Below are positions 29,217 to 45,628 of a stretch of 64,000 nucleotides of DNA, piece after piece. Position 1 is the stretch's first letter. The number at the start of each line of letters is the position of its first letter. The translations under genes were made by a program, and so were the position numbers. Below the pieces are notes generated by a model. The model was not told where the DNA came from. It saw nothing but the letters and a program-made list of their open reading frames with translations, and ran no database searches. Origin of the DNA: Mycobacterium vicinigordonae (GTDB lineage Bacteria > Actinomycetota > Actinomycetes > Mycobacteriales > Mycobacteriaceae); assembly GCF_013466425.1 (NCBI RefSeq), contig NZ_CP059165.1:4898001-4962000 (forward strand), in the 5' to 3' direction.

Positions 29217-30017
29217 TCAGCGGGCCTTCCAGACCGGCTCACGTTTCTCGGCGAATGCCAGCGGGCCCTCCCGGGCGTCCTCGGTGCGGATCAGCGTCTT
29301 CATCTCCCGCACCGTGCGGTCCCAGCCCGGCTCGTCACCGGTGACGACGCCATCGTCCACGCCGTAGGCGATGCGCTTGCTGGCCTGCACCGACAGCGGA
29401 GCGTTGCAGGTCACCCGGTCGGCCAGCTCCAGTGCGGCATCCAGCACCGGGCCCTTGACCACCTCGTTGATCAGTCCCCAGCGGTGCGCGTCAGCCGCCG
29501 ATAGCGGTTCACCGGTCATCAACAGTTGCATCGCCACCTTGCGCGGCAACTGCTCCATGATCCGGAACACACCACCGGCCGCGGCAATCAAACCGCGCTT
29601 GACCTCCGGCAGCCCGAACTGGGCGCGTTCATCGGCGACCACCAGGTCGCTGGCCAACGCCAGTTCGGTACCACCGCCCAGCGCGGTGCCGTTGACCGCG
29701 GCGATGGTGGGCTTGTCGATGAAGTGGTGCACGTACCCGGCGAAGCCGTACTCAGGATGATCCGGGTGATACAGGTTCTCCCTACGGGCGATGGCCTTGA
29801 GATCCGCACCGGCGCAGAACGACTTGTCGCCTGCGCCGGTGATCACCACCGCCCGTACCTCGGGATCGTGCTGCGCCTCCTCGAGCGCATCGCCGACGGC
29901 AATGCTGACCGCACCGTTGATCGCGTTACGCGCCTCGGGCCGGTTGATCGTGATGATCATCACATTGCCGCGGCGCTCGGTCAGCGCACCCGGAGCGGTG
30001 CCGGAGAGCTGCGTCAC
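29217..30017 (-). CDS. Enoyl-CoA hydratase (EchA-type crotonase)
   Basis: This 266-residue crotonase shows ITGAGDKSFCAGADLKAI and AAVNGTALGGGTELALASD for the oxyanion hole, and FGLPEVKRGLIAAAGG at the active site. The first catalytic glutamate is present in LPEVKRG; the second position is alanine, as in several mycobacterial EchA proteins. It overlaps the thiolase stop by ATGA (30014-30017), so hydration and thiolysis steps are co-translated. It is the last gene of the minus-strand group that starts upstream. Confidence 0.9.
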   Translation of the reverse strand: MTQLSGTAPGALTERRGNVMIITINRPEARNAINGAVSIAVGDALEEAQHDPEVRAVVITGAGDKSFCAGADLKAIARRENLYHPDHPEYGFAGYVHHFIDKPTIAAVNGTALGGGTELALASDLVVADERAQFGLPEVKRGLIAAAGGVFRIMEQLPRKVAMQLLMTGEPLSAADAHRWGLINEVVKGPVLDAALELADRVTCNAPLSVQASKRIAYGVDDGVVTGDEPGWDRTVREMKTLIRTEDAREGPLAFAEKREPVWKAR

Positions 30018-31162
30018 AGAAGCTCGAGGATCGTCGCGTTGGCCTGCCCACCACCTTCACACATCGTCTGCAGACCGTAGCGAATTCCGTTGTCCCGCAT
30101 GTGATATAGCAGCGTAGTCATGATCCGGGCGCCGGAGCCGCCGAGCGGGTGACCCAGCGCGATCGCGCCGCCGTTGGGGTTGAGCTTGTTCTTGTCGGCA
30201 CCGATGTCCTTGAGCCAAGCCAGCGGAACCGGCGCGAAAGCCTCGTTCACCTCGTAGGCGCCGATGTCGCCGATGGACAACCCGGAGCGCTTGAGCGCTT
30301 TCTGGGTGGCCGGGATGGGAGCGGTCAGCATGATCACCGGGTCGGCGCCGGCCAGAGTTGCGGTGTGCACCCTGGCGATTGGCTTCATACCCAGCTCCTT
30401 GGCCTTCTCAGCGGACATGAATAGCAGGGCCGCCGAGCCGTCGGAAATCTGCGAGGAGTTACCGGCGTGGATCACGCCGTCCTCCTTGAAAGCCGGCTTC
30501 AGCGAAGCCATTTTCTCCATCGGGGTGCCGCGGCGAATGCCCTCGTCCTTGAGAACGACGTTGCCGTCTTGATCCTTGATGCCCACGATCTGGTCATCGA
30601 AAGCACCGGAATCTTGTGCGGCAGCAGCCTTTTCGTGCGAGTCCAGGGAGAATTGGTCGAGGTCGGTGCGAGAGAAGCCCCACTGCTCGGCAATCATCTC
30701 GGCTCCGATGCCCTGGTTGGGGATCTGGCCCTTGTAGCGGGAGAGGAAACCTTCCGGGAAGGGCCGTCCGCCGTTGGCTAGTGACGCGCCCATCGGCGTA
30801 CGCGACATCGACTCGACTCCACCGGCAACGACGACGTCATAGTGACCGGCCACCACGCCGGCCGCGGCGAAATGCACCGACTGCTGGCTCGATCCACACT
30901 GACGGTCAACGGTCACGCCGGGCACCGTCTCAGGCCAGCCCGCAGTCAGCAGCGCAGTGCGGCCGATGTCGAGGGCCTGCTCGCCGGCTTGCATCACACA
31001 GCCCCAGATGACGTCTTCGACCAGCTCGGGGTCGAGGCCGGCTCTGTTGACCAAACCATTGAGGACCTGCGCGGACAGCTCGGCCGGGTGGACACCCGAC
31101 AACCCCCCGTTGCGCTTGCCGATCGGGGAACGAACTGCCTCGACGATGACTGCTTCAGCCAT
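30014..31162 (-). CDS. Acetyl-CoA acyltransferase (thiolase, FadA-type)
   Basis: This 382-residue thiolase has Cys89 in DRQCGSSQQS as the nucleophile, NEAFAPVPLAW with the conserved histidine region GHPLGGSGAR, and the C-terminal CEGGGQANA containing the second cysteine. It would cleave 3-ketoacyl-CoA in beta-oxidation. GGAGACAT precedes the ATG at 31162. A 187-base gap, with no gene visible, separates it from the aldehyde dehydrogenase gene upstream, and the palindrome ACACGTGT (31176-31183) lies in its promoter region. Confidence 0.93.
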   Translation of the reverse strand: MAEAVIVEAVRSPIGKRNGGLSGVHPAELSAQVLNGLVNRAGLDPELVEDVIWGCVMQAGEQALDIGRTALLTAGWPETVPGVTVDRQCGSSQQSVHFAAAGVVAGHYDVVVAGGVESMSRTPMGASLANGGRPFPEGFLSRYKGQIPNQGIGAEMIAEQWGFSRTDLDQFSLDSHEKAAAAQDSGAFDDQIVGIKDQDGNVVLKDEGIRRGTPMEKMASLKPAFKEDGVIHAGNSSQISDGSAALLFMSAEKAKELGMKPIARVHTATLAGADPVIMLTAPIPATQKALKRSGLSIGDIGAYEVNEAFAPVPLAWLKDIGADKNKLNPNGGAIALGHPLGGSGARIMTTLLYHMRDNGIRYGLQTMCEGGGQANATILELL

Positions 31163-31349
31163 GGATATGTCTCCTTTGACACGTGTGATTTCCCCCCGAT
31201 TGTCGTCTAACCGCTACGACGGCACAGTGCCGGGGTGCCCAGCCGCAGCTTGCGTCGCGGTCTCGGCGTCTATGAGATGCCTGGGATCGAGCGTGCCCCA
31301 ACCGAAAGACACCCGTACCCCAAGGCACAGGTGGCCGTCGGGCAGCGAA

Positions 31350-32834
31350 TCAGACGGCGGGGTATCCCACCGACTTGATCTCGGTGTACTGGTCGAAGCC
31401 AGCGACACCGTTCTGCCGGCCGACGCCGCTCTCCTTGTAGCCGCCGAACGGAGTGTCGGCGCCATAGGGGGCGCCGCCGTTGACGCCGATGAAGCCGGCC
31501 TTGATTCGGCGGGCCACCGCCAGCGAATGCTCCAGTGAGCCTGACATGACGTTGCCGGCCAGGCCGTACACGCTGTCGTTGGCGATCCGGATCGCGTCTT
31601 CCTCGTCATCGAACGGGATGACCGATAGCACCGGCCCGAAGATCTCTTCCTGGGCGATGGTCATCTTGTTGTCGACATCGGTAAACAGCGTTGGGCGGAT
31701 GAAGTATCCCTTGTCGAAGCCGGTCTCGGCACCGGGTCCGCCGACCAGCGCGGTGGCACCCTCCTCGACGCCCTTCTTGATGTATTCCGTCACCCGGTCG
31801 AACTGGCGCTTGGAAATCACTGGGCCGCAAAGGGTTCCAGGATCCTGCGGGTCGCCGCAGGTGACGTTCTCGTAGATGCTCTTCAGGATCGCCACGCCTT
31901 CCTCGTATCGCGATCGCGGCAGCAGCATTCGGGTGGGATTGGCGCAGCCCTGTCCGGCGTGCATGCAGGGGGCGATGCCGATCGCGCAGGCCAGCCCGAA
32001 GTCGGCGTCCTCCAGGACGATGGTGGCCGACTTGCCGCCCAGCTCGAGGAACAGCCGCTTCATGGTGGCCGCGCCCTTCTCCATGATCCGCTTACCCACC
32101 ACCGTCGACCCGGTGAACGAGATCAGGTCGACCTTGGGCGAGAGCGTAAGTTCCTCGCCCACAAAGTGATCCGATGCGGTGACGACATTGACCACGCCGG
32201 CCGGAATATCGGTCTTCTCGGCGATCAGCCGACCCAGCCGGGTCGCGTTGAACGGGGTGTTGGGCGCCGGTTTGAGGACGACGGTGTTGCCGCTCCCCAG
32301 TGCCTGGCCGAGTTTGTTGATGGTCACTTCGAACGGAAAGTTCCACGGCACGATGGCGCCGACCACACCTACCGGCTCCCGCCAGACTTTGATCGTGGTG
32401 TTCGCTCCGGTCAAACTGATCACCCGGTCGCCGAGGTCGGTCTCCCAGGCGTATTCATCGATCAGCCGGGCCGGGTATTTGAGTCCGTCGGCCAGCGGTG
32501 CGTCCAGCTGCGGACCGAAGGTGATGGCGCGCGGCGAGCCGACTTCGAGAATGAGCTCCTCGCGCAGCTCTTCCTTCTCCTCTTCGATCGCGTCGTGCAG
32601 CTGCAGCAGGCAGCGCTTACGCAGCTCCTTGTTGGTCGACCAGTCGGTCTCGTCGAAGGCCCGCCGGGCGGCGTCGATGGCCCGGTGCATGTCCTCCTTG
32701 GACGCATCGGCGACCTCACCGAGGGACTCCTCGGTGGCCGGGTTGATGTTGGTGAAGGTACCGGCCTGACCGTCGACGAGCTTGCCGTCGATCATCATCT
32801 TCGGCTCGAAACGGACCTTTACAGTTTCAGACAT
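31350..32834 (-). CDS. NAD(P)-dependent aldehyde dehydrogenase
   Basis: This 494-residue enzyme oxidises an aldehyde to an acid. Seen: VPWNFPFEVTINKLGQALG and LKPAPNTP for cofactor binding, ISFTGSTVVGKRI, LELGGKSATIV with Glu264, and GQGCANPTR with catalytic Cys297. The ATG at 32834 has an AAGAGAG site upstream; a GTG nine bases earlier is possible. It follows the P450 gene by 92 bases, which suggests oxidation of an alcohol or aldehyde made by the P450/SDR pair. Confidence 0.92.
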   Translation of the reverse strand: MSETVKVRFEPKMMIDGKLVDGQAGTFTNINPATEESLGEVADASKEDMHRAIDAARRAFDETDWSTNKELRKRCLLQLHDAIEEEKEELREELILEVGSPRAITFGPQLDAPLADGLKYPARLIDEYAWETDLGDRVISLTGANTTIKVWREPVGVVGAIVPWNFPFEVTINKLGQALGSGNTVVLKPAPNTPFNATRLGRLIAEKTDIPAGVVNVVTASDHFVGEELTLSPKVDLISFTGSTVVGKRIMEKGAATMKRLFLELGGKSATIVLEDADFGLACAIGIAPCMHAGQGCANPTRMLLPRSRYEEGVAILKSIYENVTCGDPQDPGTLCGPVISKRQFDRVTEYIKKGVEEGATALVGGPGAETGFDKGYFIRPTLFTDVDNKMTIAQEEIFGPVLSVIPFDDEEDAIRIANDSVYGLAGNVMSGSLEHSLAVARRIKAGFIGVNGGAPYGADTPFGGYKESGVGRQNGVAGFDQYTEIKSVGYPAV

Positions 32835-32926
32835 ACCTGTCACTCTCTTCTGACTCGTACAAGGGGCTATGGAGAGCCTTACTGGAAACTAGCCGATTGG
32901 CAAGCCTGGCGCCGTTGCGGGGTGCG

Positions 32927-34144
32927 CTACTGGGGGTCAAACAACACCGGAACCGAGGTCGGCGACCGGAAAACCTGCCCCCTGATGTGTGGGTCGTCGC
33001 CGTCGGGGTCCAACCGCAGGTTCGGCAGCCGGTCCAGCAGCAGATTGATCGCGGTCCGCATCTCCAACCGGGCCAGGTGCATACCCAGGCAAACGTGCAC
33101 GCCGTGCCCCCAGCCCAGGTGCGCCCTGGCCTGCCGGTGGATATCGAACCTGTCCGGATCGGGATAGCGATCCTCTTGGCGGTTGGCGGCGCCCAGCATC
33201 GGCATCACCGTGGCGCCGGCGGGAATCGCCACTCCGCCGAGTTCGGTGTCCCGGGTGGCCACCCGGGTAATGGTCAGCAATGGCGATTCCCAGCGCACGC
33301 CCTCTTCGATGGCCTGCGGCAGCAACGACCGATCCGCGCGGATCGCTGCCAACTGCTCCGGATCGGAGAGCAACGCCAGCAATAGGCTGCCCAGGGAGCG
33401 GTATGTCGTCTCCACTCCGGCGGGCAACAGCAGCCGCAGGAACGAAAAGATCTCCTCGTCGGCGAGCTTCTCGCCGTCGATCTCCGCCGCACCCAGGGCG
33501 CTGATCAGATCGTCTTTCGGCTCGGCGCGGCGCGCCTCGAGGATGGGCGCGAAGTATTCACACAGCGCCGCCGCGGCAGCAAGGCCGCGCTCCGGATTCA
33601 TCAGCCAGCTCAGCAGGGAAATCGACCAGCGCTGGAACTGCGGATAATCCTGCTCCGGCAGGCCCAGCAAACCGGCGATGATCTGGCTCGGATAGTCGAA
33701 GGTGAACTCTTTCACCAGATCGGCCCTTCCGTTGGGCGCGAACTTGTCGATCAGGCTGTTCGCCACCCGGGCGACCAACTCGTCCTGCCAGCGCGCCAAC
33801 GACTTCTGCGAGAACGCCTTCGACACCAGCGACCGCAGCCGGCCGTGTATCGGCTCGTCCATCCCCAACATGACGCCTTCACCCAGGACAGGCCCGAACG
33901 CCGCAATGACGGCCGCCGAGGAGAATGTCTCGTGGTCGCGCAGCATCTGCTGGATGTCCTCGTGTCGGTAGACGATGAACATCGGCAGCGATTCCTCGTG
34001 CGGCAGCGCCCCCGAGGTTTCCAAGCGTTGCACCGGTTCCTCGCGGCGCAATCGCGCCAACTCGGTGTAGGGGTCGCGGACGTCGCCGGAGATCGCGTCG
34101 TCGAAGGCGCCAAAATCTTCCAGATCGTCGAAAAGCTGTTCCAC
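32927..34144 (-). CDS. Cytochrome P450 monooxygenase
   Basis: This 405-residue P450 has the heme loop GWGHGVHVCLGMHLA with Cys352, the K-helix EEGVRW, and I-helix AGVETTYR (242-249), where the usual aspartate of AGxDT is glutamate. It lies ten bases after an SDR gene and before an aldehyde dehydrogenase gene, in one orientation with the AveC-like and binding-protein genes. No ferredoxin gene is next to it. It could hydroxylate a terpenoid or fatty substrate; the substrate is not deducible. Confidence 0.92.
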   Translation of the reverse strand: MEQLFDDLEDFGAFDDAISGDVRDPYTELARLRREEPVQRLETSGALPHEESLPMFIVYRHEDIQQMLRDHETFSSAAVIAAFGPVLGEGVMLGMDEPIHGRLRSLVSKAFSQKSLARWQDELVARVANSLIDKFAPNGRADLVKEFTFDYPSQIIAGLLGLPEQDYPQFQRWSISLLSWLMNPERGLAAAAALCEYFAPILEARRAEPKDDLISALGAAEIDGEKLADEEIFSFLRLLLPAGVETTYRSLGSLLLALLSDPEQLAAIRADRSLLPQAIEEGVRWESPLLTITRVATRDTELGGVAIPAGATVMPMLGAANRQEDRYPDPDRFDIHRQARAHLGWGHGVHVCLGMHLARLEMRTAINLLLDRLPNLRLDPDGDDPHIRGQVFRSPTSVPVLFDPQ

Positions 34145-34154
34145 TGCTGCTCCT

Positions 34155-35129
34155 CTAATGCTTCCTCGATGTCAGCGCGGCCAACCGCTGCAACACGGGC
34201 TGGGGGATGACGCGTGCGGCTAACACCATCGCTTTCTGGGCCGTTGTCAGCGGCCAGGCTCCGTCCCGCATCGCCCCTTGCCGGGGTATGCCCAGCACGA
34301 CCCGAGACACCTGGTGCATCCCCGGAGAAGGCAGGACCCTGTTGGCCGCCAGCAGCATTGAGGCGTCTACACCCACGCCGCGACGCCGAAACGGCTTGGT
34401 GTCGGCGAGGGCCTTGACTAGGCCGTCGGCGAATCTCTCGGGCGGCCTGGCGAATCGGACCGCGAACCGCCCGCGGGTGTTCATGGTGGTGTGCAACCGC
34501 GCGTAGGCACCAGTGAAGTCGCGCGCGTCGATAGTGCCAGCGTCGGTGATGATCTCGGTGTCGTAGGTGCCGGCGACCAGGACGGTGACGCCGAGGCCGA
34601 ACGGTGCGATTTCCACGGCCATCGCCTCACCCCAACGTTCCAGGGCGCCCTTGGCTGCCGAGTAGGGCGCGGTGCCCGGCTGTCCGCGGACACCGGCGGC
34701 ACTGGACACCAGCACGATGCGCCCCTGCCCCGCCGCTCGCATTGCCGGCAACAGCGCTTGGGTGAGTGCTACCGGACCCAGGACGCTGGTAGTAAACATT
34801 TTCTGCCACAACGCCATATCGCTCTCCTCCACCACCCCGGCAGCGGAGATCCCGGCGTTGTGGACCAGGGCGTAGGGTGCGTCCACGGCCTCTCCGATGG
34901 TTTTGGCCGCCGCGGCGATCGACGCGGGATCGGCGAGATCGAGCTGGACACCGATCATCCTGCCGTCGTCCTCGGCGGCCCCGGTCGCCTGTCGCAGCAG
35001 CGGCAGTCCGCGCTCGGGTGTTCGCATGGCGGCTATGACCCGCCATCCCTCCCGATACAGTCGCACGGCTGAGGCGAAACCCAGCCCGCGCGACGCACCG
35101 GTGATGACGACGGTGCGGGGCTCAGCCAT
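34155..35129 (-). CDS. Short-chain dehydrogenase/reductase
   Basis: This 324-residue classical SDR has TGASRGLG for cofactor binding, NAG in LVHNAGISAAG, and the catalytic Ser-Tyr-Lys set in SSAAGVRGQPGTAPYSAAK. The ATG at 35129 overlaps the AveC-like stop by eight bases. A C-terminal extension of about 60 residues beyond the usual fold ends in LQRLAALTSRKH. It probably oxidises an alcohol made by the neighbouring P450. Confidence 0.9.
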   Translation of the reverse strand: MAEPRTVVITGASRGLGFASAVRLYREGWRVIAAMRTPERGLPLLRQATGAAEDDGRMIGVQLDLADPASIAAAAKTIGEAVDAPYALVHNAGISAAGVVEESDMALWQKMFTTSVLGPVALTQALLPAMRAAGQGRIVLVSSAAGVRGQPGTAPYSAAKGALERWGEAMAVEIAPFGLGVTVLVAGTYDTEIITDAGTIDARDFTGAYARLHTTMNTRGRFAVRFARPPERFADGLVKALADTKPFRRRGVGVDASMLLAANRVLPSPGMHQVSRVVLGIPRQGAMRDGAWPLTTAQKAMVLAARVIPQPVLQRLAALTSRKH

Positions 35130-36273
35130 TCTTACCCGGTGAAGGCGAGATCGCAGCGGCACAAGCGCCTTGACCCGCCGGTGGCGGTTCGACGTGCGGC
35201 CGACCATTGGGCTGCCCGCTCATCCAAGTCGACCAGATACCCACCGAATAGGGGCCCTGTGCACCCTCCCTCTCGTAAAAGCCCTGCGGATCATAGACTT
35301 TCGCCTCAGGATAGGGCCACGGGCAGGCCACCGAGGTCGCCGCGCCGCTGGCCTTGATCACGGCAAACCATGCGCCGTAGGCGAAGTAGGACACATTGAT
35401 GATGGCGAACATCACCAGGAATGTGCCAAGCACGGGGCGGCTCGGGAAGATCTTGGCTTTGGCGGCCAGCTTCTCGGCAACGGATTTACCGGTGTCATCG
35501 CGGTAGCAGAGTATCGCTGCGGGCACCATCACGAACGTCACCGAGAACGATTCCCAGATCAGTGGGAACTGGAATGTGGTGCCGGTGAACAACGAACCCC
35601 ATGGGATCACCTGCGAGTAGATGTACATGCCGGTGTGCACCAACTGGATCTCCAGCCAGGCGTCGAAGATGAACCCGATTACACAGGTGATCGCGCCGAG
35701 GCAGATCAGCGGATGCCGCGAGACGAAGGCTTCCGGCCCGTTCCGGGCCTGCAGCTTGCGCAGTATCCAAACCGCCGGGAAGTAGGGACCGAAATAGAAA
35801 GTGACGTAACCGAATACGACGAACGGCTCTACTGTCGGCGACAGCGACACCAGCGGCCACGACTCTGGCCAGTGCAGCAGGTCGGGGTTGTACACCGCGA
35901 ACGGCGCCCAGTTCATGATCGGGTCCTGCCAGACGATCAGCGTGGTGCACAGGAACATCAGCATCGCCGGGCTGCCCGGGTTGCGCCGCCAGCCCCTGAC
36001 GAAGACGATCACCAGCACGATCAGCATGATCACGGTGGAGATCTGCAGGAACGCGATGTAGTCCAACCCGAAGATAAACCGGACCGGACGGGGCCGGCCT
36101 TCCACATTCGGGTTTGCCACCCGCGGGTCCAACGCGGTACGCGCGTTGACGATGAAGAAAAGCGCGAACGCCGCCACGGCGGCGCCGGCGATCCAGCCGC
36201 CCCAGCCGCGCTTCCCGGTTCGCTTGGGGACCTCGGACTTGTCGTCCGCGACGAGTGATTGGTCTGTGCTCAT
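35122..36273 (-). CDS. AveC-like polytopic membrane protein
   Basis: This 383-residue integral membrane protein has about six or seven helices (for example WIAGAAVAAFALFFIV and ISTVIMLIVLVIVFV) and aromatic-rich loops such as WPESWPLVSLSPTVEPF. It resembles the spirocyclase AveC family known from avermectin synthesis, a call made from overall pattern. It lies seven bases after the binding-protein gene and overlaps the SDR gene, so it belongs to the same transcript. Its role in mycobacteria is unknown; cyclisation or binding of a lipid intermediate in the membrane is possible. Confidence 0.65.
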   Translation of the reverse strand: MSTDQSLVADDKSEVPKRTGKRGWGGWIAGAAVAAFALFFIVNARTALDPRVANPNVEGRPRPVRFIFGLDYIAFLQISTVIMLIVLVIVFVRGWRRNPGSPAMLMFLCTTLIVWQDPIMNWAPFAVYNPDLLHWPESWPLVSLSPTVEPFVVFGYVTFYFGPYFPAVWILRKLQARNGPEAFVSRHPLICLGAITCVIGFIFDAWLEIQLVHTGMYIYSQVIPWGSLFTGTTFQFPLIWESFSVTFVMVPAAILCYRDDTGKSVAEKLAAKAKIFPSRPVLGTFLVMFAIINVSYFAYGAWFAVIKASGAATSVACPWPYPEAKVYDPQGFYEREGAQGPYSVGIWSTWMSGQPNGRPHVEPPPAGQGACAAAISPSPGKNG

Positions 36274-36280: not shown

Positions 36281-37393
36281 TCATTCTCCGAAGCGGTCGA
36301 CTAGGTGCGAGTTGACACCGTCGGCATCGAGGGTCCGCGCCACCAGATAACCTGCGCCCATCCAGGCGCGGCGCGTCCATTTGCCGAAGGACACCCGCGT
36401 ACCGGGCGCGCCCGAGGCGGCGGGCAGCATCTTGACCCGCTCCAGCGCTTCCTTGACGCCGCGCGGGCTGAGCGGATGGGCGTCGGTAAACGCCCGCACC
36501 AGGGTGGCAGCGACGTCGCGGTTCACCACGGTCACGCAGAACTCGGGGCGACTGCCGTGGTACTTCTTCGCGTAAGCATCAAGGAAGTCCTGCCCGATCT
36601 TGTTCGCCTCGTCGTATTGGTCGACACCGATCCAGCCCATGAACGCGTTCCACATGATGGGGTTGACCCACGCGTTCTGCCACGCGGTAGTGGTGAAGCG
36701 GGGTGGGTCCCAGTTGACGGCCTCCAATGCGGGATTGATGAACACGATCCCGAAGCCGAAGCCCAGGTGCACGATCGCTTCGGCCTTGGCATCGTGCAGG
36801 GTTCGCACGGCTTCGTTGATGTCCTGGGCGGTCTGCGCGACCGTGACTTCCGCGACGATTCGAATACCCTTGCGCCGGCAGGCGCTTCGCAGGTTCTTCA
36901 GGTAGCTCTCACCGATCAGGCTCTGCTCGACCAGGACGCCGATCTCGGTGAGTTCACGCTTGGCGATGAGGTCGGCCAGGAAGATCGGCTCATCGGTCAT
37001 CGATCCCTGTGGAAATGCGAAAGTCCACTCGCCCAGCCAGTCGTCGGTGCCGGTCACGCTGATGGCCGGAACTTTAAATCGTTCCTCGATCGCCTCCCGC
37101 AACGGCACGCAATTGTCGGTGATGTTCGGACCGAAGACCACCAGGCAGCCTTCGTCGACCAGTTCGCCGTACGCATCGATCACTGCCTTGACCGAACCTT
37201 TGGGCAGGCCTTCTACCTCGCGATAGATCATTTGCACGGGACGGTCCATCAGACCTTGGGCGAGCGCCTCTTCGAAGATGAGGTCGAACGTCTGGGTGAA
37301 CGAGGCAAACAGCTCCTCGGGGAAACCCGGCGGAAGCCTGAAGTCCATCAGGTAGCCGACTTTGATCGGCTCTGCCTGGCTTTCGTAGGACAT
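36281..37393 (-). CDS. Substrate-binding-fold protein (Leu/urea-type periplasmic binding family) without signal peptide
   Basis: This 370-residue type I periplasmic-binding-fold protein starts MSYESQAEPIKVGYLMDF and enters the first beta-strand at once, with no signal peptide or lipobox. Conserved stretches include VVFGPNITDNCVPLREAI and IAVTG-like ISVTGTDDW. No permease or ATPase genes accompany it. It may therefore act in the cytosol as a ligand sensor or carrier. The ATG at 37393 follows GGGGAGG. A member of the five-site operator family lies upstream (37425-37439). Confidence 0.82.
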   Translation of the reverse strand: MSYESQAEPIKVGYLMDFRLPPGFPEELFASFTQTFDLIFEEALAQGLMDRPVQMIYREVEGLPKGSVKAVIDAYGELVDEGCLVVFGPNITDNCVPLREAIEERFKVPAISVTGTDDWLGEWTFAFPQGSMTDEPIFLADLIAKRELTEIGVLVEQSLIGESYLKNLRSACRRKGIRIVAEVTVAQTAQDINEAVRTLHDAKAEAIVHLGFGFGIVFINPALEAVNWDPPRFTTTAWQNAWVNPIMWNAFMGWIGVDQYDEANKIGQDFLDAYAKKYHGSRPEFCVTVVNRDVAATLVRAFTDAHPLSPRGVKEALERVKMLPAASGAPGTRVSFGKWTRRAWMGAGYLVARTLDADGVNSHLVDRFGE

Positions 37394-37439: not shown

Positions 37440-37467
37440 CAGAGACTAGCGCCGCCGCTATGCAGCG

Positions 37468-38343: not shown

Positions 38344-38372
38344 AGCCTAGCCGGAACAGATGTTTGTTTCAA
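38344..38372 (-). promoter_or_regulatory. Promoter with embedded operator, copy B (AAA+ gene)
   Basis: On the minus strand TTGAAA (-35) and TAGGCT (-10) are 17 bases apart. The plus-strand word AACAGATGTTTGTTT (38355-38369) lies inside the spacer and extends into the -35 box. A repressor bound there would block polymerase. Confidence 0.65.
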
Positions 38373-38465: not shown

Positions 38466-40220
38466 CTAGCGTGACCCGGTGCGACGTGGTGGCCGGGCGA
38501 ACGCGTCTGAGTAGGAGGTCACAGGCGAGACTCTTCGGCGAACCTCCGCCGAGCGCAGCGCGGACCTGAAGAGCCCTCCGATCACGCCGGCGAGTTGGTC
38601 GGGACGGCCGATGGTCGCATGCGCGGTGCTGCCGAACACACGTCGCAGCGAGAGCACGTCGGTGCCGGCGCCGATCGTCAGGCACACACAACCGGTCCCC
38701 CGGCGGCGGGCCTCCGACAACGCACGGCGCGCATCGGCGGCACCGTAGGCCCGCTCGTAGCCGTGGTCGTACGCCAGTCCGTCCGACAGCACTACCAACA
38801 GTCGCCGTGCCGTCCCACCGCGTGCCTCCAGGACCGTCGAACCATGCCGGATCGCCGCACCAAGCCGCGAGTACGCCCCGGGTTCCAGGCTGTTGAGCCG
38901 CCGCATCACCCGGGTGTCGAAATGATCGTCGAACCGTTTGACTGGCACCATGCTCACCGCGCCGCGACCCTGCGAGTAGTACGCATACATCGCCACCCGA
39001 TCACCCAGATCATGCAGCGCTACAGCAAGATTGGCGATGGCCGTCCGCTGTTGCTCGTGCACGGTGCGCCCCACCGTTCCGGGCTCGGCCGCCGACCCGG
39101 ACACGTCGAGCAGCAACAGCACCGACAGGTCACGGCGGCGCCTCAGGCTATCGAGATAGACGGACTCGTCCGGCGCCGACCCGGCCCGCACCTCGACCCG
39201 CGCTTCGACCGCCGCGTCGACGTCGATGTCGTCACCCTGCCATTGCCGAGCCCGGCGGTGCAGCCCCATGCCGAGTCGGGCCAGTGGGCGCCGGACACCG
39301 ATGGCGTCGTCGATCGCCTGCGTCGCAGAGGCTTTGGTCCTGGGCTCCACCTCACGCACGGTGCACCAGTTGGACCGGTAGCGCCTGCGCGTAGCGTCCC
39401 ATTCGGGATATCTCGCGCCGTCGGCCTGGGCATCGTGGATGCGATCCTCCTCGCTAGAGGTCACTGCCAGCGACGAGACCGCCTGGGCACCGCGATTGCC
39501 CGAGTTAGTTCGATGGGTGGGAGTGTCCGCACCCGGCGGCCCGCCCCCCGTCCCGGTTTTTCGCGCCGACGACAGCATCTTCTTGAGCCACTTACCGATG
39601 AACCCACCCCCACCGACCGGACTGGTGAACATGTCGGGGTCATTGGAGTCGTCGATGTCGTCGTCGTCCAACTCCTCGCGTTCGGTTGCGTCTCGTGACC
39701 TGCGGGGAATGTGCTGTGGATTCGCCTGATTCTGTTGCTTGTCCGCTCGGGCGCAGGCGGCCAGCACTTTCGAGGCGCGGATCACGCCGTACTCCGGCGC
39801 CGGGTCGTCGATGGTCGTCCGCCCCTCGGCGAGGCGCAGCGATGCGGCCGGGGATTCGCTGCGGCCGGGGATCTCGCGAGCTGCCAACGGCGCCAGGATG
39901 TTCGGCAGCAGGGCGGCGTTGACGCTCAACGCACGACCGGCCTCGACTGCCAAATACCGTTTGGCCAGTCGCGGGTGGCGGACCAGCGGCCGGATAACCC
40001 CCGCGTCCAGGCTGCCGGCCGCGATCAACGATGCCTGCACCGCAACGGCTTGCAAGGCTGCGAGTTTCGTGCCGGCCCCACCGGAACCAGGTACATAGAT
40101 GCTCTGGCCGTCGGTCCACGAGGGCTCACCCGGCGGCAGGTACCTCACAGCCACCGCTCGACCGGCGAGTGCGGAGGCGAACATGGCGAGTATCTGGTCA
40201 CCTGCAGGGACGTCGCCCAC
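38466..40220 (-). CDS. VWA-domain protein (CbbO/NorD-like partner of AAA+ ATPase)
   Basis: This 584-residue protein has an N-terminal helical domain, a low-complexity acidic linker (REELDDDDIDDSNDPD, about 181-196), and a C-terminal von Willebrand A domain with the MIDAS motif LLDVSGSAAE (Asp372, Ser374, Ser376). CbbO and NorD partners of MoxR-type ATPases share this plan and use the metal site to grip the client protein. The GTG at 40220 has GGGGAGG six bases upstream. It probably forms a complex with the product of the next gene. Confidence 0.87.
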   Translation of the reverse strand: MGDVPAGDQILAMFASALAGRAVAVRYLPPGEPSWTDGQSIYVPGSGGAGTKLAALQAVAVQASLIAAGSLDAGVIRPLVRHPRLAKRYLAVEAGRALSVNAALLPNILAPLAAREIPGRSESPAASLRLAEGRTTIDDPAPEYGVIRASKVLAACARADKQQNQANPQHIPRRSRDATEREELDDDDIDDSNDPDMFTSPVGGGGFIGKWLKKMLSSARKTGTGGGPPGADTPTHRTNSGNRGAQAVSSLAVTSSEEDRIHDAQADGARYPEWDATRRRYRSNWCTVREVEPRTKASATQAIDDAIGVRRPLARLGMGLHRRARQWQGDDIDVDAAVEARVEVRAGSAPDESVYLDSLRRRRDLSVLLLLDVSGSAAEPGTVGRTVHEQQRTAIANLAVALHDLGDRVAMYAYYSQGRGAVSMVPVKRFDDHFDTRVMRRLNSLEPGAYSRLGAAIRHGSTVLEARGGTARRLLVVLSDGLAYDHGYERAYGAADARRALSEARRRGTGCVCLTIGAGTDVLSLRRVFGSTAHATIGRPDQLAGVIGGLFRSALRSAEVRRRVSPVTSYSDAFARPPRRTGSR

Positions 40221-40245: not shown

Positions 40246-40275
40246 TTGACCAAATATCTGTTCCACCGTAGAGTC
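40246..40275 (+). promoter_or_regulatory. Promoter with embedded operator, copy C
   Basis: TTGACC (40246-40251) and TAGAGT (40269-40274) are 17 bases apart in plus orientation. The spacer carries the complement of AACAGATATTTGGTC (40248-40262). This 30-base block is repeated 68 bases downstream at 28 of 30 positions. It lies between the divergent VWA and fadE genes. Confidence 0.7.
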
Positions 40276-40313
40276 CAGCCGTCGGCCAGTCAATCGGACC
40301 AAGTCGGCGCCAA

Positions 40314-40343
40314 TTGATCAAATATCTGTTCCAACGTAGAGTC
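40314..40343 (+). promoter_or_regulatory. Promoter with embedded operator, copy D (fadE operon)
   Basis: TTGATC (40314-40319) and TAGAGT (40337-40342) are 17 bases apart, and the operator word, reading AACAGATATTTGATC on the minus strand (40316-40330), sits within. The start codon of the fadE operon is 41 bases downstream. This is the nearer of two tandem copies. Confidence 0.72.
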
Positions 40344-40383: not shown

Positions 40384-41532
40384 GTGGACTTCTCATATCC
40401 GGCGGAGGTGGAGCGCTTCCGCGATGAGCTGCGTACCTGGCTGTCGGCGAACCTGACCGACGAATTGCGCGCCGCCCGCCGACCGTCTGCCCGCGACGAT
40501 GCCACCTTCGACAAGCTACGCAAGTGGGACGCGACCGCCGCTGACGCCGGATGGGGTGCGGTGTCCTGGCCCCGAGAGTACGGTGGCCGAGGCGCGACGG
40601 TGCTCGAACAGCTGGTCTTCACCGAGGAGACCACCCGAGCGCGAGCACCCCTACCGCTCAACGTCATCGGGATGAACAACATCGCGCCGGCCATCATGCA
40701 GTACGGCACGGAACAGCAGAAGACGACACTGCTACCCCGCATGATGCGTGCCGACGACATTTGGTGCCAAGGCATGTCGGAGCCCGACGCGGGGTCGGAT
40801 CTGGCCGCGCTGCGCACCAAGGCGGTGCGGGATGGCGACGACTTCGTCGTCAACGGCCAGAAGATCTGGACTTCGCTGGGCCACCGGGCGAATTGGTGTC
40901 AACTGTATGTGCGCACCGACCCGGACGCCCCCAAGCACAAAGGCATCTCTTGTCTGATCGTGGACATGAGCCGGCCCGGCATCGACGCCCGTCCCCTGGT
41001 CACACTCAACGGCGACTCGGACTTCGCCGAAGTCTTCTTCAACGACGTTCGGGTACCCGTCGGCGCACTACTCGGTCCGCTCAACGGCGGCTGGCAAGTT
41101 GCCACCACCACATTGAGCCACGAGCGGGCCGGCGCCGCCCGGCTGTACGCGGAGTTACATGTTCGACTTGATGAATTGGTGGCCGACTTCGCTGCCGCGG
41201 ACGCCTCGGGGAGCATTCTCGATGACCCGGTTGTGCTACGCCGTCTCGGCGAGCTCGGCGTCCGGATCAAGTATCTGGAAGTGCTTTGCCAGCGGTCGAT
41301 CTCGGCGACACTGCACGGCGGCGACCCACTCGGGTCGGCCAGCCTGGCCAAGACGGTATGGGGCGAGATCGGCCAAGATCTGTCCGCACTCGCATTCGAC
41401 GTGCTGGGCAACCACGGCGGCCATTGGGCTGACTACCGGCTTTCGTCGCGGTCGCTGACCATCGCCGGCGGCACGAGTCAGATCAACAAGAACATCACCG
41501 CACAGCGCGTCCTGGGACTGCCGCGAAAATGA
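40384..41532 (+). CDS. Acyl-CoA dehydrogenase (probable alpha subunit)
   Basis: This 382-residue flavoprotein has QGMSEPDAGSDLAALRT, VNGQKIWTSLGHRANWC, the helix SHERAGAARLYAEL with a probable catalytic glutamate, and AGGTSQINKNITAQRVLGLPRK at the end. It starts with GTG. Its stop overlaps the next acyl-CoA dehydrogenase (ATGA at 41529-41532), the usual layout of mycobacterial heterotetrameric FadE pairs that act on bulky acyl-CoAs. It opens a four-gene operon behind two promoter/operator copies. Confidence 0.92.
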   Translation: MDFSYPAEVERFRDELRTWLSANLTDELRAARRPSARDDATFDKLRKWDATAADAGWGAVSWPREYGGRGATVLEQLVFTEETTRARAPLPLNVIGMNNIAPAIMQYGTEQQKTTLLPRMMRADDIWCQGMSEPDAGSDLAALRTKAVRDGDDFVVNGQKIWTSLGHRANWCQLYVRTDPDAPKHKGISCLIVDMSRPGIDARPLVTLNGDSDFAEVFFNDVRVPVGALLGPLNGGWQVATTTLSHERAGAARLYAELHVRLDELVADFAAADASGSILDDPVVLRRLGELGVRIKYLEVLCQRSISATLHGGDPLGSASLAKTVWGEIGQDLSALAFDVLGNHGGHWADYRLSSRSLTIAGGTSQINKNITAQRVLGLPRK

Positions 41533-42620
41533 ACCTCGAACTCACCGACGAGCAGATCGCCCTGCGAGACACGGTTCGCCGCTTTCTGGCTGAGAAGGCA
41601 TCGATTTCGGCGCATGTGCGCCCGCTGCTCGACGATCCGACCGGCACCACCGAACAGGTTTGGCGCGGCCTCGCCGACCTTGGGACCACCGGTCTGCTGG
41701 TGCCCGACGAACACGGCGGTGCCGGCATGACGATGGTCGAAGCGGGCGTCGTCGCCGAAGAGCTCGGCGGCGCGCTACACCCAGGCCCGTGGCTGTCGAC
41801 CGCGGTGGCCGCGGTGCGGACCCTGACCCGGGTGGGCGGTGAACCAGCCGCGCAGATCCTCGCGCAGATTGCCGAAGGCACCACGATCGCGACCGTCGTG
41901 GGTCTGGGTGCGCGGCCGGCCACGGTGTCGTCCGGTAACGCGGGGCCTCAGTTATCTTCGCCGCCGCTGACGGTCCCCGACGCGGCCGCCGCCGACGTGC
42001 TGCTGGTGCTCGCCGAAGATGGCGACGCCATCGGATTGTGGGCGGTCCAGCCCCCCTTCCCCGGCACCTCGGTGACACCCGAGTGCGGAATCGACAAGAC
42101 CCGCAAGCAATTTCGCGTCGAGTTCACTGATGCCAATGCACAGCACCTCGGCATGGTGACGCCCGACGACGTCGACGCCGTAGTCGACGATATGCTCATC
42201 GCGACGGCCGCCGACGCACTCGGCGCCGCCGGCGCCGTGCTTAACATGGCCGTCGAATATGCCAAGAGCCGAAAGCAATTCGGGGCGCCCATCGGATCTT
42301 TCCAGGCCATCGGGCACCTGTGCGTCGATATGTACGAGACGGTGGAGCTGGCCCGCAGCGGCGTGGTCCACGCGCTGTGGGCAGCCGACTCGTGCCCAAT
42401 CGAGCGACACTCAGCAGCATTGCGGGCCAAGGCATTCGCAGGACGGCTGGCCACGGTCGGCGACACCGCGATCCAGGTTTTTGGCGGCATCGGTTACACC
42501 TGGGAGCACGATGCGCACCTTTACCTCAAACGACTGCTGAGCTGGAGCGCATTGCTCGGCGGACCCGACCGCTATCTCACCGAGGTGGGTGCGCAACTCG
42601 CCAGGAAGGGGCGGCGATGA
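41529..42620 (+). CDS. Acyl-CoA dehydrogenase (probable beta subunit)
   Basis: This 363-residue protein has the dehydrogenase N-terminal helices, a divergent middle domain, and the C-terminal segments KSRKQFGAPIGSFQAIGH and FGGIGYTWEHDAHLYLKR. As in beta chains of mycobacterial FadE heterotetramers, it lacks the YEGT-type motif. It overlaps its partner upstream and the SDR gene downstream by ATGA, so the three are translated together. Confidence 0.9.
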   Translation: MNLELTDEQIALRDTVRRFLAEKASISAHVRPLLDDPTGTTEQVWRGLADLGTTGLLVPDEHGGAGMTMVEAGVVAEELGGALHPGPWLSTAVAAVRTLTRVGGEPAAQILAQIAEGTTIATVVGLGARPATVSSGNAGPQLSSPPLTVPDAAAADVLLVLAEDGDAIGLWAVQPPFPGTSVTPECGIDKTRKQFRVEFTDANAQHLGMVTPDDVDAVVDDMLIATAADALGAAGAVLNMAVEYAKSRKQFGAPIGSFQAIGHLCVDMYETVELARSGVVHALWAADSCPIERHSAALRAKAFAGRLATVGDTAIQVFGGIGYTWEHDAHLYLKRLLSWSALLGGPDRYLTEVGAQLARKGRR

Positions 42621-43546
42621 TCGATTTCACTGACCAGGTCGCTATCGTCACCGGCGCCGGACGCGGTCTCGGGCGCCTGTACGCAATGGAATTGGCCCGG
42701 CGGGGTGCTGCCGTCGTCGTCAACGATCTCGGCGGAACCATGCACGGCGAAGGCGCCGACACCTCCGTCGCCGATGAGGTCGTCGCCGAAATCCGGGCGG
42801 CCGGGGGCACCGCTGTCGCGTCGTACGACTCGGTGGCCAGCCCCGAGGGCGGCGAGGCGATCGTGGCCGCGGCGGTGCAGAACTTCGGCCGCCTCGACGC
42901 GGTGGTGAGCAACGCCGGGATCTTCAACAGCATCCCGTTCGACGAACTGTCCGCCGACGACTGGCGCCGCATGCACACCGTCCATCTTGACGGCGGGTTC
43001 TACCTCAGCCAGCCGGCCTACCGGCTGATGAAGGCGCAGCAGCACGGCCGGTTCGTGTTCGTTTCGTCCTCCGCCGGGATGTTCGGGCAGCCGCTGGAAG
43101 CCCACTACGCCGCCGCTAAAGCCGGCCTGGTGGGTCTGTCAAATGTCATCGCGATCGAGGGCGCCGAACATGGCATCCTGTCCAACACGGTGTTGCCGTT
43201 CGGTGTCTCTCGCATGGTGACCGAAACCCTCGGAGATCCGAAAGCCGTTGAACAGATCGGGTTTCTGAACATGATCAAACCCGAGCTGGTCGTTCCAATC
43301 GTCGCATTCCTCGCCAGCCGGGACTGCCAATTCACCCACCAGAACTACTCGGCCTGCGCCGGGCGGTTCGCCCGAGTCTTCGTAGGCCTCGGCCAGGGTT
43401 GGTTTGCCGAGGCTGGCAGTGAACCGACCGCCGACGACATACTGGCCCATCTCTGTGAAATCTCGGCAACTGAGCCGTTCACCGTGCCCGACTCGATCTT
43501 CGACGAAGTCTTTTCAATCGCCTCGCAGCTCGGCGTCACCACCTGA
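42617..43546 (+). CDS. Short-chain dehydrogenase (hydroxyacyl-CoA/hydroxysteroid dehydrogenase-like)
   Basis: This 309-residue SDR has VTGAGRGLGRLYAMELARRG, VVNDLGG, VSNAGIF, and the active-site set SSSAGMFGQPLEAHYAAAK. The DLGG motif and fold resemble the N-terminal domain of multifunctional enzyme type 2, which oxidises 3-hydroxyacyl-CoA. The ATG at 42617 is coupled to the fadE stop and has AGGAAGG upstream. It could perform the third step of beta-oxidation in this operon. Confidence 0.9.
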   Translation: MIDFTDQVAIVTGAGRGLGRLYAMELARRGAAVVVNDLGGTMHGEGADTSVADEVVAEIRAAGGTAVASYDSVASPEGGEAIVAAAVQNFGRLDAVVSNAGIFNSIPFDELSADDWRRMHTVHLDGGFYLSQPAYRLMKAQQHGRFVFVSSSAGMFGQPLEAHYAAAKAGLVGLSNVIAIEGAEHGILSNTVLPFGVSRMVTETLGDPKAVEQIGFLNMIKPELVVPIVAFLASRDCQFTHQNYSACAGRFARVFVGLGQGWFAEAGSEPTADDILAHLCEISATEPFTVPDSIFDEVFSIASQLGVTT

Positions 43547-43570
43547 CCCCCACCACCAAGCAGCCAGACA

Positions 43571-44218
43571 ATGGACATCGCCTATCTGCTGAGCGCCACC
43601 CGGTCAGCGCGCAAATCACTCGACCTGAGCGCGCCCGTCGACCTCGCCGATATCCGCGACTGCCTGCAGATTGGATTGCAGGCAGCCAACGGGTCGAATC
43701 AGCAGAACTGGCGTTGGCTGGTCGTCACCGATCACGCGCTTCGCGAGGAGATCGCGCAGCTCTTCCGCGAGGCGTATTTGCGCCGCGTCGGCGGGCAGTT
43801 CCTCGCCGGGTTGCTGCCAGCCGGCACCCCGGAGGCGCGGCTGATGTCGTCGACCGAGTGGCTGGTCGAACACCTAGCCCGGATACCGGCGCTAGTAATC
43901 CCTTGCTACCAGCCGTATTTGCCGCGTATCGACGGGGATGAGTCGTTCCATCTGGCGACGCTGTACGGTTCCATCTTCCCAGCAGTGTGGAACTTTCAGC
44001 TGGCCCTGCACACCCGCGGATACGGGACGTGCATCACTACCTTGCACCTGCACCACGAAACCGCCGTCGGCGAGTTGCTCGGCATTCCATCGACGTATGT
44101 GCAAGGCTGCCTCCTACCCGTCGGCCGGCTGCGTGCCGGGCACACCTTCCACCCCGCACCCCGGGTGCCCGTCGAGCAGGTAGTCACCCTGGACCGCTGG
44201 ACCGGGCCACCCATCTAA
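43571..44218 (+). CDS. Nitroreductase-family FMN oxidoreductase
   Basis: This 215-residue protein has the nitroreductase-fold start TRSARKSLDL, the FMN-binding LQAANGSNQQNWRWLVV, and the C-terminal GYGTCITTLHLHHETAVGELLGIP. Family members reduce nitro groups, quinones or enoyl groups with NAD(P)H. It starts 24 bases after the SDR stop in the fadE operon. A role as an enoate or quinone reductase on a pathway intermediate is possible. Confidence 0.88.
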   Translation: MDIAYLLSATRSARKSLDLSAPVDLADIRDCLQIGLQAANGSNQQNWRWLVVTDHALREEIAQLFREAYLRRVGGQFLAGLLPAGTPEARLMSSTEWLVEHLARIPALVIPCYQPYLPRIDGDESFHLATLYGSIFPAVWNFQLALHTRGYGTCITTLHLHHETAVGELLGIPSTYVQGCLLPVGRLRAGHTFHPAPRVPVEQVVTLDRWTGPPI

Positions 44219-44285
44219 GATTGTGTGTCCAGGCGTACGCACGTCCTTAACCAGCGCGTTTGTCGCGGTCAGTCTGATAGCCTCT

Positions 44286-44300
44286 AACAAAGATTTGGTT
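44286..44300 (+). promoter_or_regulatory. Regulon operator, copy E (tandem TetR gene)
   Basis: AACAAAGATTTGGTT matches the consensus of the four sites at 37425, 38355, 40248 and 40316. It lies upstream of the tandem TetR gene, next to a possible promoter (TTGTCG at 44260, TCTAAC at 44283, 17-base spacer). This suggests autoregulation and identifies the likely regulator of the regulon. Confidence 0.68.
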
Positions 44301-44321
44301 CGGCAGGAGGACGGGATTCGC

Positions 44322-44369
44322 ATGGTGCAATCGCTGCGGTCCTCCGGAGCGGCGACCCACCCGCTATGA
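44322..44369 (+). CDS. Possible 15-residue leader peptide coupled to the TetR gene
   Basis: ATG at 44322 lies 11 bases after AGGAGG, the best ribosome-binding site in the region, and encodes MVQSLRSSGAATHPL. Its TGA overlaps the TetR ATG (TATGA at 44365-44369). The TetR gene has only a weak site of its own, so reinitiation from this leader is plausible. The peptide has no recognised family. Confidence 0.4.
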   Translation: MVQSLRSSGAATHPL

Positions 44370-45628
44370 CCGACAGCGCAATCGAAAGCGGCACCCGCCG
44401 CACCGAGATCCTCGAGACCGCCGCCGCGCTGATCGCCACGTCGGGGCTGCGCACCTCGCTGCAGGAAATCGCCGATGCGGCAGGCATTCTCCCGGGCAGC
44501 CTCTATCACCACTTCGAGTCCAAAGAAGCCATCCTGGTCGAGCTGATCCGCCGCTACCAGGCCGACCTGGACCACGTCGGGCAAAGCGCCCAGGCCCGCC
44601 TCGACGAGCCGGACCCCCGCCCCCCCGCCGAGAAGGTCATCGAGTTGGGGCAGGCGATCGCCAACTGCGCCGTGCGGCATCGCGCGGCACTGCAGATGTC
44701 GTTCTACGAGGGACCGAGCGCCGATCCCGAGCTGATGCAACTGACGCAACAGCGCCCCGTCGCGATGCAGGAGGCGATGCTGCAGACGCTGCGCGTCGCC
44801 AGGTGGAGCGGCTACATCAAGGCCGACGTGGACCTGCCCATCCTGGCCGACCGGATCTGCCAGACGATGCTGCAGGTCGGACTGGACGTCATGCGGGCCA
44901 ACTCCTCGGCCGATCAGGTGGCCGCCCTGTTGTGCCGGATCATGTTGCAGGGGTTGGCTTCTCGTCCTCCCACCGACCGGGCGCTGGACCGGTCCAAGGC
45001 GTTCGCCGCAGCGAGTGCGGTCATCGAATCCTGGGCCGACGACAGCGAGGCCGACCCCAGCGACAAAGCGGCGCATCTGCGCGCGGTCGCGCGTACCGAG
45101 TTCGGTCGCAAGGGCTATGAGGTCACCACCATCCGTGACATCGCGTCTGCGGCCGGTCTGGGCACCGGGACTGTTTACCGGGTGATCGGCTCCAAAGACG
45201 AACTGCTGGCCTCGATCATGCGCTCGTTCGGCCAGAAGGTCGAAGCGGGGTGGGTCGACGTGCTGCGCTCGGATGCGACGCCGATCGAGAAACTCGACGC
45301 CTTGAGTTGGGTCAACGTCAACGCGCTGGACCAGTTTTCGGACGAATTCCGCATTCAGCTCGCCTGGATGCGCCAGTCACCGCCGCGCGACACGGTAAAC
45401 CCAGGCTGGTCGTACACTACCCGATTGCGACAGATGAAATCGCTTCTCTCCGAAGGCATTCGATCCGAGGAGATACGGGCCGACACCGGCTCCATCACCA
45501 TGCTGGCCCGGTGCATCATCGGCATGCAGTGGATACCGGAGAACATCCTGCGTGAAGTGGGCACCCGAACGTCGTTGTTGCTGGCGCGGGACACAGTCTT
45601 GCGCGGCGTGGCGGTACGCGGCAAATAG
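44366..45628 (+). CDS. Tandem TetR-family regulator (two TetR units fused)
   Basis: This 420-residue protein carries two complete TetR units. The first helix-turn-helix is at about 15-60 (LQEIADAAGILPGSLYHHFES) and the second at about 238-284 (IRDIASAAGLGTGTVYRVIGS), each followed by a helical ligand-binding domain. Most TetR proteins are half this length and dimerise; a fused pair may bind as an internal dimer. It follows the fadE/SDR/nitroreductase operon and has a copy of the shared operator upstream, so it is the best candidate regulator of the 29-45 kb locus. Confidence 0.88.
   Translation: MTDSAIESGTRRTEILETAAALIATSGLRTSLQEIADAAGILPGSLYHHFESKEAILVELIRRYQADLDHVGQSAQARLDEPDPRPPAEKVIELGQAIANCAVRHRAALQMSFYEGPSADPELMQLTQQRPVAMQEAMLQTLRVARWSGYIKADVDLPILADRICQTMLQVGLDVMRANSSADQVAALLCRIMLQGLASRPPTDRALDRSKAFAAASAVIESWADDSEADPSDKAAHLRAVARTEFGRKGYEVTTIRDIASAAGLGTGTVYRVIGSKDELLASIMRSFGQKVEAGWVDVLRSDATPIEKLDALSWVNVNALDQFSDEFRIQLAWMRQSPPRDTVNPGWSYTTRLRQMKSLLSEGIRSEEIRADTGSITMLARCIIGMQWIPENILREVGTRTSLLLARDTVLRGVAVRGK

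Follow-up and report, generated by a model that had tools for sequence, protein, structure and literature searches.

We analysed a stretch of 64,000 nt from the Mycobacterium vicinigordonae contig NZ_CP059165.1 (positions 4,898,001-4,962,000, hereafter the window), in which a gene cluster at window positions 29217..45628 brings together a set of putative lipid-oxidising enzymes, an AveC-like membrane protein, an AAA+ ATPase with a VWA-domain partner, and a regulator whose single chain holds a pair of TetR DNA-binding domains (the tandem or double TetR). We propose, with a probability of roughly 0.7, that the cluster is a catabolic regulon switched by the double TetR and equipped with a NorQD-type machine that serves AveC. 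The genes, in window coordinates, are as follows.

29217..30017, minus strand: enoyl-CoA hydratase of the EchA type (Pfam ECH_1, 196 bits), on the strand of the operon that runs from the binding protein to the aldehyde dehydrogenase
30014..31162, minus strand: thiolase (Pfam Thiolase_N and Thiolase_C)
31350..32843, minus strand: aldehyde dehydrogenase (ALDH; Pfam Aldedh, 484.8 bits)
32927..34144, minus strand: cytochrome P450 (Pfam p450, 109.1 bits)
34155..35207, minus strand: short-chain dehydrogenase 1 (SDR1; Pfam adh_short, 142.7 bits); start uncertain, its open reading frame (ORF) overlapping that of AveC
35122..36273, minus strand: AveC-like polytopic membrane protein (Pfam AveC_like, PF17198, 227.5 bits, cut-off 26.6)
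36281..37393, minus strand: binding protein of the Peripla_BP_6 fold (BP6; Pfam, 78.3 bits), leaderless and probably cytosolic
37468..38319, minus strand: AAA+ ATPase of the CbbQ/NorQ type (Pfam AAA_5 and CbbQ_C, 89.2 bits)
38466..40220, minus strand: VWA-domain protein (Pfam VWA_2), NorD-like in its C-terminal half
40384..41532, plus strand: acyl-CoA dehydrogenase, FadE subunit a (Pfam Acyl-CoA_dh domains)
41529..42620, plus strand: acyl-CoA dehydrogenase, FadE subunit b (Pfam; IpdE2-like, below cut-off)
42617..43546, plus strand: short-chain dehydrogenase 2 (SDR2; Pfam adh_short, 131.2 bits); start inferred, the ORF being open from 42320 and the adh_short domain starting at residue 106 of that long ORF
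43571..44218, plus strand: nitroreductase-family flavoprotein (Pfam Nitroreductase, 68.8 bits)
44366..45628, plus strand: predicted repressor of the Mce3R kind, a double TetR in a single chain (Pfam, two TetR_N stretches)

Operators and promoters of the cluster

An initial annotation of this DNA had reported five sites matching one 15-mer, each ahead of a different unit or gene of the cluster except for a pair in the VWA/fadE intergene. The positions are right, but the match is exact only for the site at 40248-40262 (minus strand, in a motif scan of the window), whereas the sites at 37425, 40316 and 44286 have one mismatch each and the site at 38355 has two. Matches with up to three mismatches number nine in the window (both strands being counted for a near-palindrome) versus 0.90 expected, and none of 100 shuffled sequences contained nine. 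Within the whole genome (6.27 Mb), 13 places lie within two mismatches, five of them in the cluster, compared with a single place for the reversed pattern. We derived a 16-bp position weight matrix (PWM) from the five window sites; the five places in the window that score at least 16 are the training set of this matrix. The operators, together with the promoter patterns on or beside them, are listed below.

37425..37440, minus strand: operator 1, before the BP6-AveC-SDR1-P450-ALDH operon; kept in 75/80 loci
37443..37471, minus strand: -35/-10 pair TTGACG-17-TAGTCT, with operator 1 immediately downstream; geometry in 72/75 loci
38344..38372, minus strand: -35/-10 pair TTGAAA-17-TAGGCT, spanning operator 2; geometry in 71/73 loci
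38354..38369, plus strand: operator 2, before the AAA+ gene; kept in 73/79 loci
40246..40274, plus strand: -35/-10 pair TTGACC-17-TAGAGT, spanning operator 3; geometry in 68/75 loci
40248..40263, minus strand: operator 3, containing the exact motif and common to the divergent VWA and fadE promoters; kept in 75/76 loci
40265..40293, minus strand: -35/-10 pair TTGACT-17-TACGGT, directed towards the VWA gene, with operator 3 immediately downstream; geometry in 73/75 loci
40314..40342, plus strand: -35/-10 pair TTGATC-17-TAGAGT, spanning operator 4
40316..40331, minus strand: operator 4, the second site on the fadE side
44285..44300, plus strand: operator 5, before the tandem TetR gene; kept in 58/67 loci, autoregulation being proposed

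These locus counts refer to 80 named Mycobacterium loci, which are the best 80 of 233 matches; the denominator for an operator comprises the loci in which the gene concerned is present in the fetched stretch, that for a promoter geometry comprises the loci with a site in that slot, and a site is a PWM score of at least 16 upstream of that gene. Altogether the 80 loci contain 375 sites in 1.61 Mb, whereas 50 symmetric column-permuted matrices gave 2.0 on average and 35 at most, and mean column identity is 0.93-0.99 in the sites versus 0.39-0.77 in the flanking 30-mers. A second set consisted of 34 syntenic loci (L031-L064) and six paralogous AAA+/VWA loci (L065-L070), some genomes belonging to both sets. 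The P450-(ALDH)-SDR1-AveC-BP6-AAA+-VWA core with the tandem TetR recurs, with variations, in most of the syntenic loci, 33 of which carry at least one site scoring 16 or more; none of the six paralogous loci, which are without this TetR, carries one. Furthermore, a search of 60 genomes of the genus for the 15-mer with at most one mismatch gives 105 occurrences, versus two for the reversed pattern, and the 36 genomes concerned comprise all 34 that possess the locus and two of the 26 that do not (G022 and G029). The latter (G029, locus L307) retains a decayed locus of VWA and AAA+ fragments only, yet has three sites of at least 18.

Outside the genus, a tandem TetR of at least 42% identity is found in eight genomes of another family of the same class (f32), and six of the 11 loci with this gene, two of which overlap on one contig, have a site of at least 16. 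Two of these loci (L197 and L237) contain the module in full, with sites upstream of the VWA gene as well as of the TetR gene, and a third (L233) likewise has one upstream of its tandem TetR gene. The initial annotation had staked its proposal on conservation of the sites in orthologous loci; this conservation is present, and the idea of an operator set shared by several transcription units is supported by the recurrence of the sites at orthologous promoters.

Several observations weigh against this interpretation. Among the syntenic loci, the diverged L063 is devoid of sites, and some loci in the distant family (L232, L234 and L235/L242) hold much or all of the module and likewise no site. 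The slot before the tandem TetR gene is the least conserved of all, and only 3 of its 58 sites across the 80 loci use the promoter pattern; around operator 5 itself (at 44286) a -35/-10 pattern was searched for and none was found. Moreover, the loci are related, so that the counts are not independent of one another. Weighing these points, we consider it very likely, on comparison of the sequences, that a single operator set is common to these units.

Three sites had been placed inside the 17-nt spacer of a -35/-10 pair, and all three lie there (38355 on the minus strand, 40248 and 40316 on the plus strand). The arrangements counted above recur across the 80 loci, where about 0.0015 would be expected by chance. 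Operator 3 lies both in the rightward spacer and behind the leftward -10 element, and a single operator can thus serve VWA and fadE. The second site in this intergene, operator 4, has a counterpart in a near relative (L062), which also has two sites there; many other loci have one. Positions inside or just after promoters fit with repression.

Copies of the operator are also found elsewhere in the genome. At 3.94 Mb (L184, positions 4827 and 6959) one site separates an SDR gene from that of a luciferase-like monooxygenase, and another lies between DapB-like and aminotransferase genes, the site at 4827 falling within the predicted start of an ORF; at 2.81 Mb (L183, position 5002) a site precedes an Abhydrolase_3 gene, a homologue of which in another genome (G007) has an identical site. 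Homologues of the 3.94-Mb SDR (64-88% identity) occur in 45 fetched loci, many of them directly behind a tandem TetR gene, and 37 of the 45 have a site of at least 14 upstream. Since the operator accompanies these genes even where their position in the genome differs, descent from a single ancestral locus is by itself a poor explanation, and the regulon seems to extend past the window. Of the eight places outside the cluster with at most two mismatches, those in L183 and L184 alone are counted as supported: three others (L185, L186 and L187) lie inside predicted ORFs, one (L190) is a weak intergenic site with a PWM score of 14.2, and two (L188 and L189) give no match of at least 12.

These distal copies bear on the view that the sites resemble one another through common ancestry and promoter constraint, and are not operators. 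All the loci are indeed related, and the sites do sit on promoters. Nevertheless, the same family of 16-mers recurs at four distinct positions within a single locus and again at the distal genes, the flanks diverge, the six paralogous AAA+/VWA loci lack the site, and it recurs in the distant family beside the same regulator. We regard this explanation as very improbable.

The double-TetR regulator

The tandem TetR was aligned with its homologues (48 sequences, that of the window included), and its predicted fold is that of a single chain whose halves pair with each other, as in Mce3R. A phmmer comparison with Mce3R aligns the DNA-binding parts alone (E 2.9e-11), and the fold match is at 18% identity. 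Mce3R of Mycobacterium tuberculosis is a double-TetR repressor according to the available part of its description, which gives it a 25-bp asymmetric operator (PMC11667970), whereas the operator of the cluster is a 16-bp near-palindrome. The two regulons also differ in content, the cluster having AveC, P450, BP6 and NorQD-like genes. The tandem TetR is not new in kind, because double-TetR repressors have been described before, Mce3R being one.

The halves of the operator are unlike each other in all 75 of the BP6 sites, in 74 of the 75 VWA sites and in 45 of the 58 TetR sites. In the AAA+ slot, by contrast, 66 of the 73 sites have two like halves. For this reason, operator asymmetry is not proof of binding by a single chain, and strict asymmetry was rejected as an argument to that effect.

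The KstR and KstR2 regulons of cholesterol catabolism resemble the cluster in having TetR repressors, short inverted-repeat operators and genes of lipid catabolism, but these regulators are single-domain TetR proteins with another consensus, as given in the accessible text of PMC3068626, whereas the cluster has a double TetR. A separate regulator, for example a TetR of the KstR2 kind, might nonetheless bind the operators, with the tandem TetR a mere neighbour. Such a view could draw on the resemblance of the N-terminal half of the tandem TetR to KstR2 (4w1u, E 8.4e-15), on the A-n-C-A type half that the cluster motif has in common with the KstR2 motif AnCAAGnnCTTGnT (PMC3068626, in part), and on the low conservation of the TetR slot. 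The distribution of the sites speaks otherwise: they follow the locus through the genus, as counted above, unlike KstR2, orthologues of which were found in all mycobacteria examined but M. leprae according to the portion available of PMC4482099. Additionally, sites stand before the tandem TetR gene even in the distant family (L197, L233 and L237). We consider a separate regulator quite unlikely and take the tandem TetR, as initially annotated, to be the likely regulator of the operator set on the strength of these distributions.

The AAA+/VWA pair and AveC

The AAA+ protein matches NorQ (9qhd_A, E 8.9e-92) and, nearly equally, the CbbQ-type 5c3c_A (E 3.2e-90), followed by 6l1q_C (E 5.5e-84). 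In the VWA protein, residues 263-553 align with NorD (9qhd_G, E 1.9e-34), and the N-terminal part is unmatched. Walker A is present in 40 of 41 AAA+ sequences, and the DxSxS pattern of the metal-ion-dependent adhesion site (MIDAS) in 38 of 40 VWA sequences. The homology to NorQ and NorD supports the earlier suggestion of a pair of the metalloprotein-maturing kind. NorQD is described, in the part of the source available, as supplying a membrane protein with non-haem iron (PMC13036017). The likeness consists in a CbbQ/NorQ-family AAA+ protein with a VWA partner and in the client, a membrane protein in the case of NorQD and probably also in the cluster. The cluster differs in that its AAA+ and VWA genes have separate operators, and a Pfam scan of the proteins encoded at 27.7-49.1 kb of the window detects no nitric oxide reductase. 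The CbbQ/CbbO Rubisco activases share the AAA+ family; a difference from these is that no Rubisco gene was detected by Pfam among the genes identified in the interval.

The genome contains a second AAA+/VWA pair at about 1.76 Mb (L182), with a hemerythrin-domain gene and a BP6 homologue (44% identity) nearby, and the PWM scan of this locus gives no site of at least 12.

The grouping of AveC with a MoxR/VWA pair had been noticed in the initial annotation and stands; what we add is that AveC, which had not been singled out, is a likely client of the machine. The AveC gene adjoins the AAA+ gene in relatives, and of 100 related genomes 45 contain AveC_like matches and 44 contain CbbQ_C matches. 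Within the 59 genomes of the same genus, both families are present in 41 and neither in 15, AveC alone in two (G042 and G055) and CbbQ_C alone in one, which is the fragmentary case G029; these counts are uncorrected for relatedness. Among the AveC matches listed, an AveC gene lies within 5 kb of 59 of the 62 CbbQ_C genes that score at least 88 bits. In the paralogous loci, too, AveC, AAA+ and VWA stay together while the other neighbours vary (P450, wax-ester synthase, GMC oxidoreductase or Lcp-type oxygenase).

Other observations count against AveC as the client. An AveC gene is within 5 kb of only 5 of the 36 CbbQ_C genes below 88 bits (again among the AveC matches listed), which suggests that such machines also serve other clients, and the 88-bit line was itself chosen after the scores had been seen. 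Conversely, 46 of 120 AveC rows have no AAA+ gene nearby, and the predicted model of AveC is weak (predicted local distance difference test, pLDDT, 67) with no clear fold match. The AAA+/VWA pair could instead serve the P450, another enzyme of the locus or general remodelling, AveC being linked to it only by belonging to one pathway. In favour of this view are the weaker-scoring CbbQ_C genes, the AveC genes that stand apart from any AAA+ gene, and the CbbQO-type machines, which according to the available text activate Rubisco instead of inserting metal (PMC8718961). The persistence of the AveC-AAA+-VWA trio where the other neighbours differ, and the near-constant presence of AveC beside the strong CbbQ_C genes, argue the other way, and we judge a client other than AveC to be rather unlikely. 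On balance, we lean towards AveC as the client of the AAA+/VWA pair.

Residue conservation in AveC was compared over the same 120 rows, of which 74 are linked to a CbbQ_C gene (at most 6 kb away) and 46 are not, relatedness being uncorrected. Glu at position 149 is present in 73/74 linked and 15/46 unlinked sequences, Asp at D117 in 73/74 versus 26/46, Asp at D204 in 72/74 versus 25/46, and Glu at E208 in 74/74 versus 31/46; the alignment near E149 shifts between two alignments, and the 15 unlinked rows keep the Glu. An AveC-family protein from one genome of the same class that has no CbbQ_C match (G358) lacks Glu149 and the D259/D260 pair. This acidic pattern fits a cofactor site that would be lost where the machine is absent. 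Loading of a metal into AveC by the pair is a tentative suggestion that we hold to be somewhat doubtful, and it is equally speculative whether the AAA+/VWA-linked AveC proteins form an unrecognised family of integral-membrane metalloenzymes, perhaps with carboxylate-bound iron, loaded by a NorQD-type machine dedicated to them, regulon and chaperone forming a module that the double TetR switches on to attack a bulky lipid oxidatively. A di-iron site in AveC, suggested by the conserved acidic residues, was rejected, H134 being Asn in 33 of the 74 linked sequences, and the metal is left unnamed and its loading is kept as an inference.

The avermectin spirocyclase/dehydratase AveC belongs to the same Pfam family, AveC_like, the comparison here being made at the level of the family. 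Its setting is a polyketide macrolide pathway, whereas the AveC of the cluster stands among genes for oxidation and beta-oxidation and is linked to AAA+/VWA.

Two further features of the family may be mentioned. A short stand-alone type of AveC (L091, L094 and others) is without several of the acidic residues conserved in the AAA+/VWA-linked type, and some genomes have 10 to 17 AveC_like matches, several of them within a few hundred kb (G018, G043, G045 and L191-L194).

A putative catabolic pathway and its surroundings

The gene types given in the initial annotation agree with Pfam, although its mention of two P450/SDR/ALDH-type steps was loose, the interval holding one P450. The best solved relatives of this P450 by sequence are 6gmf, 8w6z and CYP125MRCA. 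FadE subunit b scores 167.8 of 450 bits against IpdE2, its best steroid-type family, and EchA 277.2 of 400 bits against EchA19, both below the curated cut-offs. The EchA and thiolase genes have no operator of their own within the window. These enzymes could plausibly oxidise a substrate to the acid level and degrade a bulky acyl-CoA by beta-oxidation, and a catabolic role for the cluster appears likely from its gene content.

BP6 had been called leaderless, and its start supports this: the residues [MVL]SYES stand immediately before the domain in 33 of 34 aligned rows. Its gene has an operator and a promoter within about 80 bp upstream in the window. The protein has no match among PDB sequences at E <= 0.001, and its identity with a known solved protein was dropped on that ground. 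We infer that BP6 is a cytosolic ligand-binding or sensing protein; a sensor role like that of AmiC is conceivable.

We envisage the following course of events. The double TetR would fold as a single-chain pseudo-dimer like Mce3R and bind the 16-bp operator, located within or directly behind the promoters of BP6-AveC-SDR1-P450-ALDH, of AAA+, of the divergent VWA and fadE-fadE-SDR2-nitroreductase units, and of its own gene. With its ligand absent it would block all these units jointly, and a substrate or CoA-ester signal may release it. The AAA+ and VWA proteins would form a NorQD-type machine that remodels AveC and perhaps loads a metal. Breakdown of the bulky, hydrophobic substrate would begin with AveC and the P450; the product would be converted into an acid by SDR1 and ALDH, and beta-oxidation would fall to the FadE pair, SDR2, EchA and thiolase.

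A biosynthetic locus, with AveC as cyclase or dehydratase for a lipid or terpenoid product, would suit the naming of AveC_like after a spirocyclase and the cluster of type III polyketide synthase-like, ICMT and FAD genes that adjoins at 25.5-29.2 kb. It accounts less well for the FadE pair, EchA, thiolase and SDRs in or beside the regulated units, or for an mce-type operon at about 4.5-11 kb. Derepression by a TetR regulator is, moreover, typical of catabolism. We therefore consider a biosynthetic locus unlikely, and retain the catabolic regulon.

The initial annotation stated that no described system combines these elements, and literature searches, which covered few papers in subscription journals, found no paper on the combination. 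Accessory genes of an M. avium field isolate include a spirocyclase, a P450, an SDR, an ALDH, two TetR and a CbbQ/NirQ, which are left unanalysed in the passage available (PMC10876796), and "spirocyclase AveC family protein" is used only as a taxonomic marker in the accessible part of another report (PMC5819568). The parts are of known kinds; novelty, within the literature searched, lies in their combination, in the operator set and in the link to AveC. If the proposal is right, the AAA+/VWA machines, a large class whose members are mostly orphans, gain a candidate client that can be tested, and AveC-like proteins a clue to their role outside antibiotic pathways. It would also provide a second well-delimited case of DNA reading by a double TetR, with five operators and some 80 named loci to compare, and define an accessory catabolic regulon in many non-tuberculous mycobacteria.

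Some neighbouring genes deserve mention. The mce-type operon (window 4570-11077) lies about 20 kb away and encodes four MlaD proteins, one with Mce4_CUP1; acyl-CoA dehydrogenases lie at 16.1-19.7 kb, and the PWM scan of the operon region gives no site of at least 16. At 25492-29210 of the window, genes for a type III polyketide synthase-like protein (DpgA-like, below cut-off), an ICMT methyltransferase and an FAD oxidoreductase adjoin the regulon, as the same group does in a number of species.

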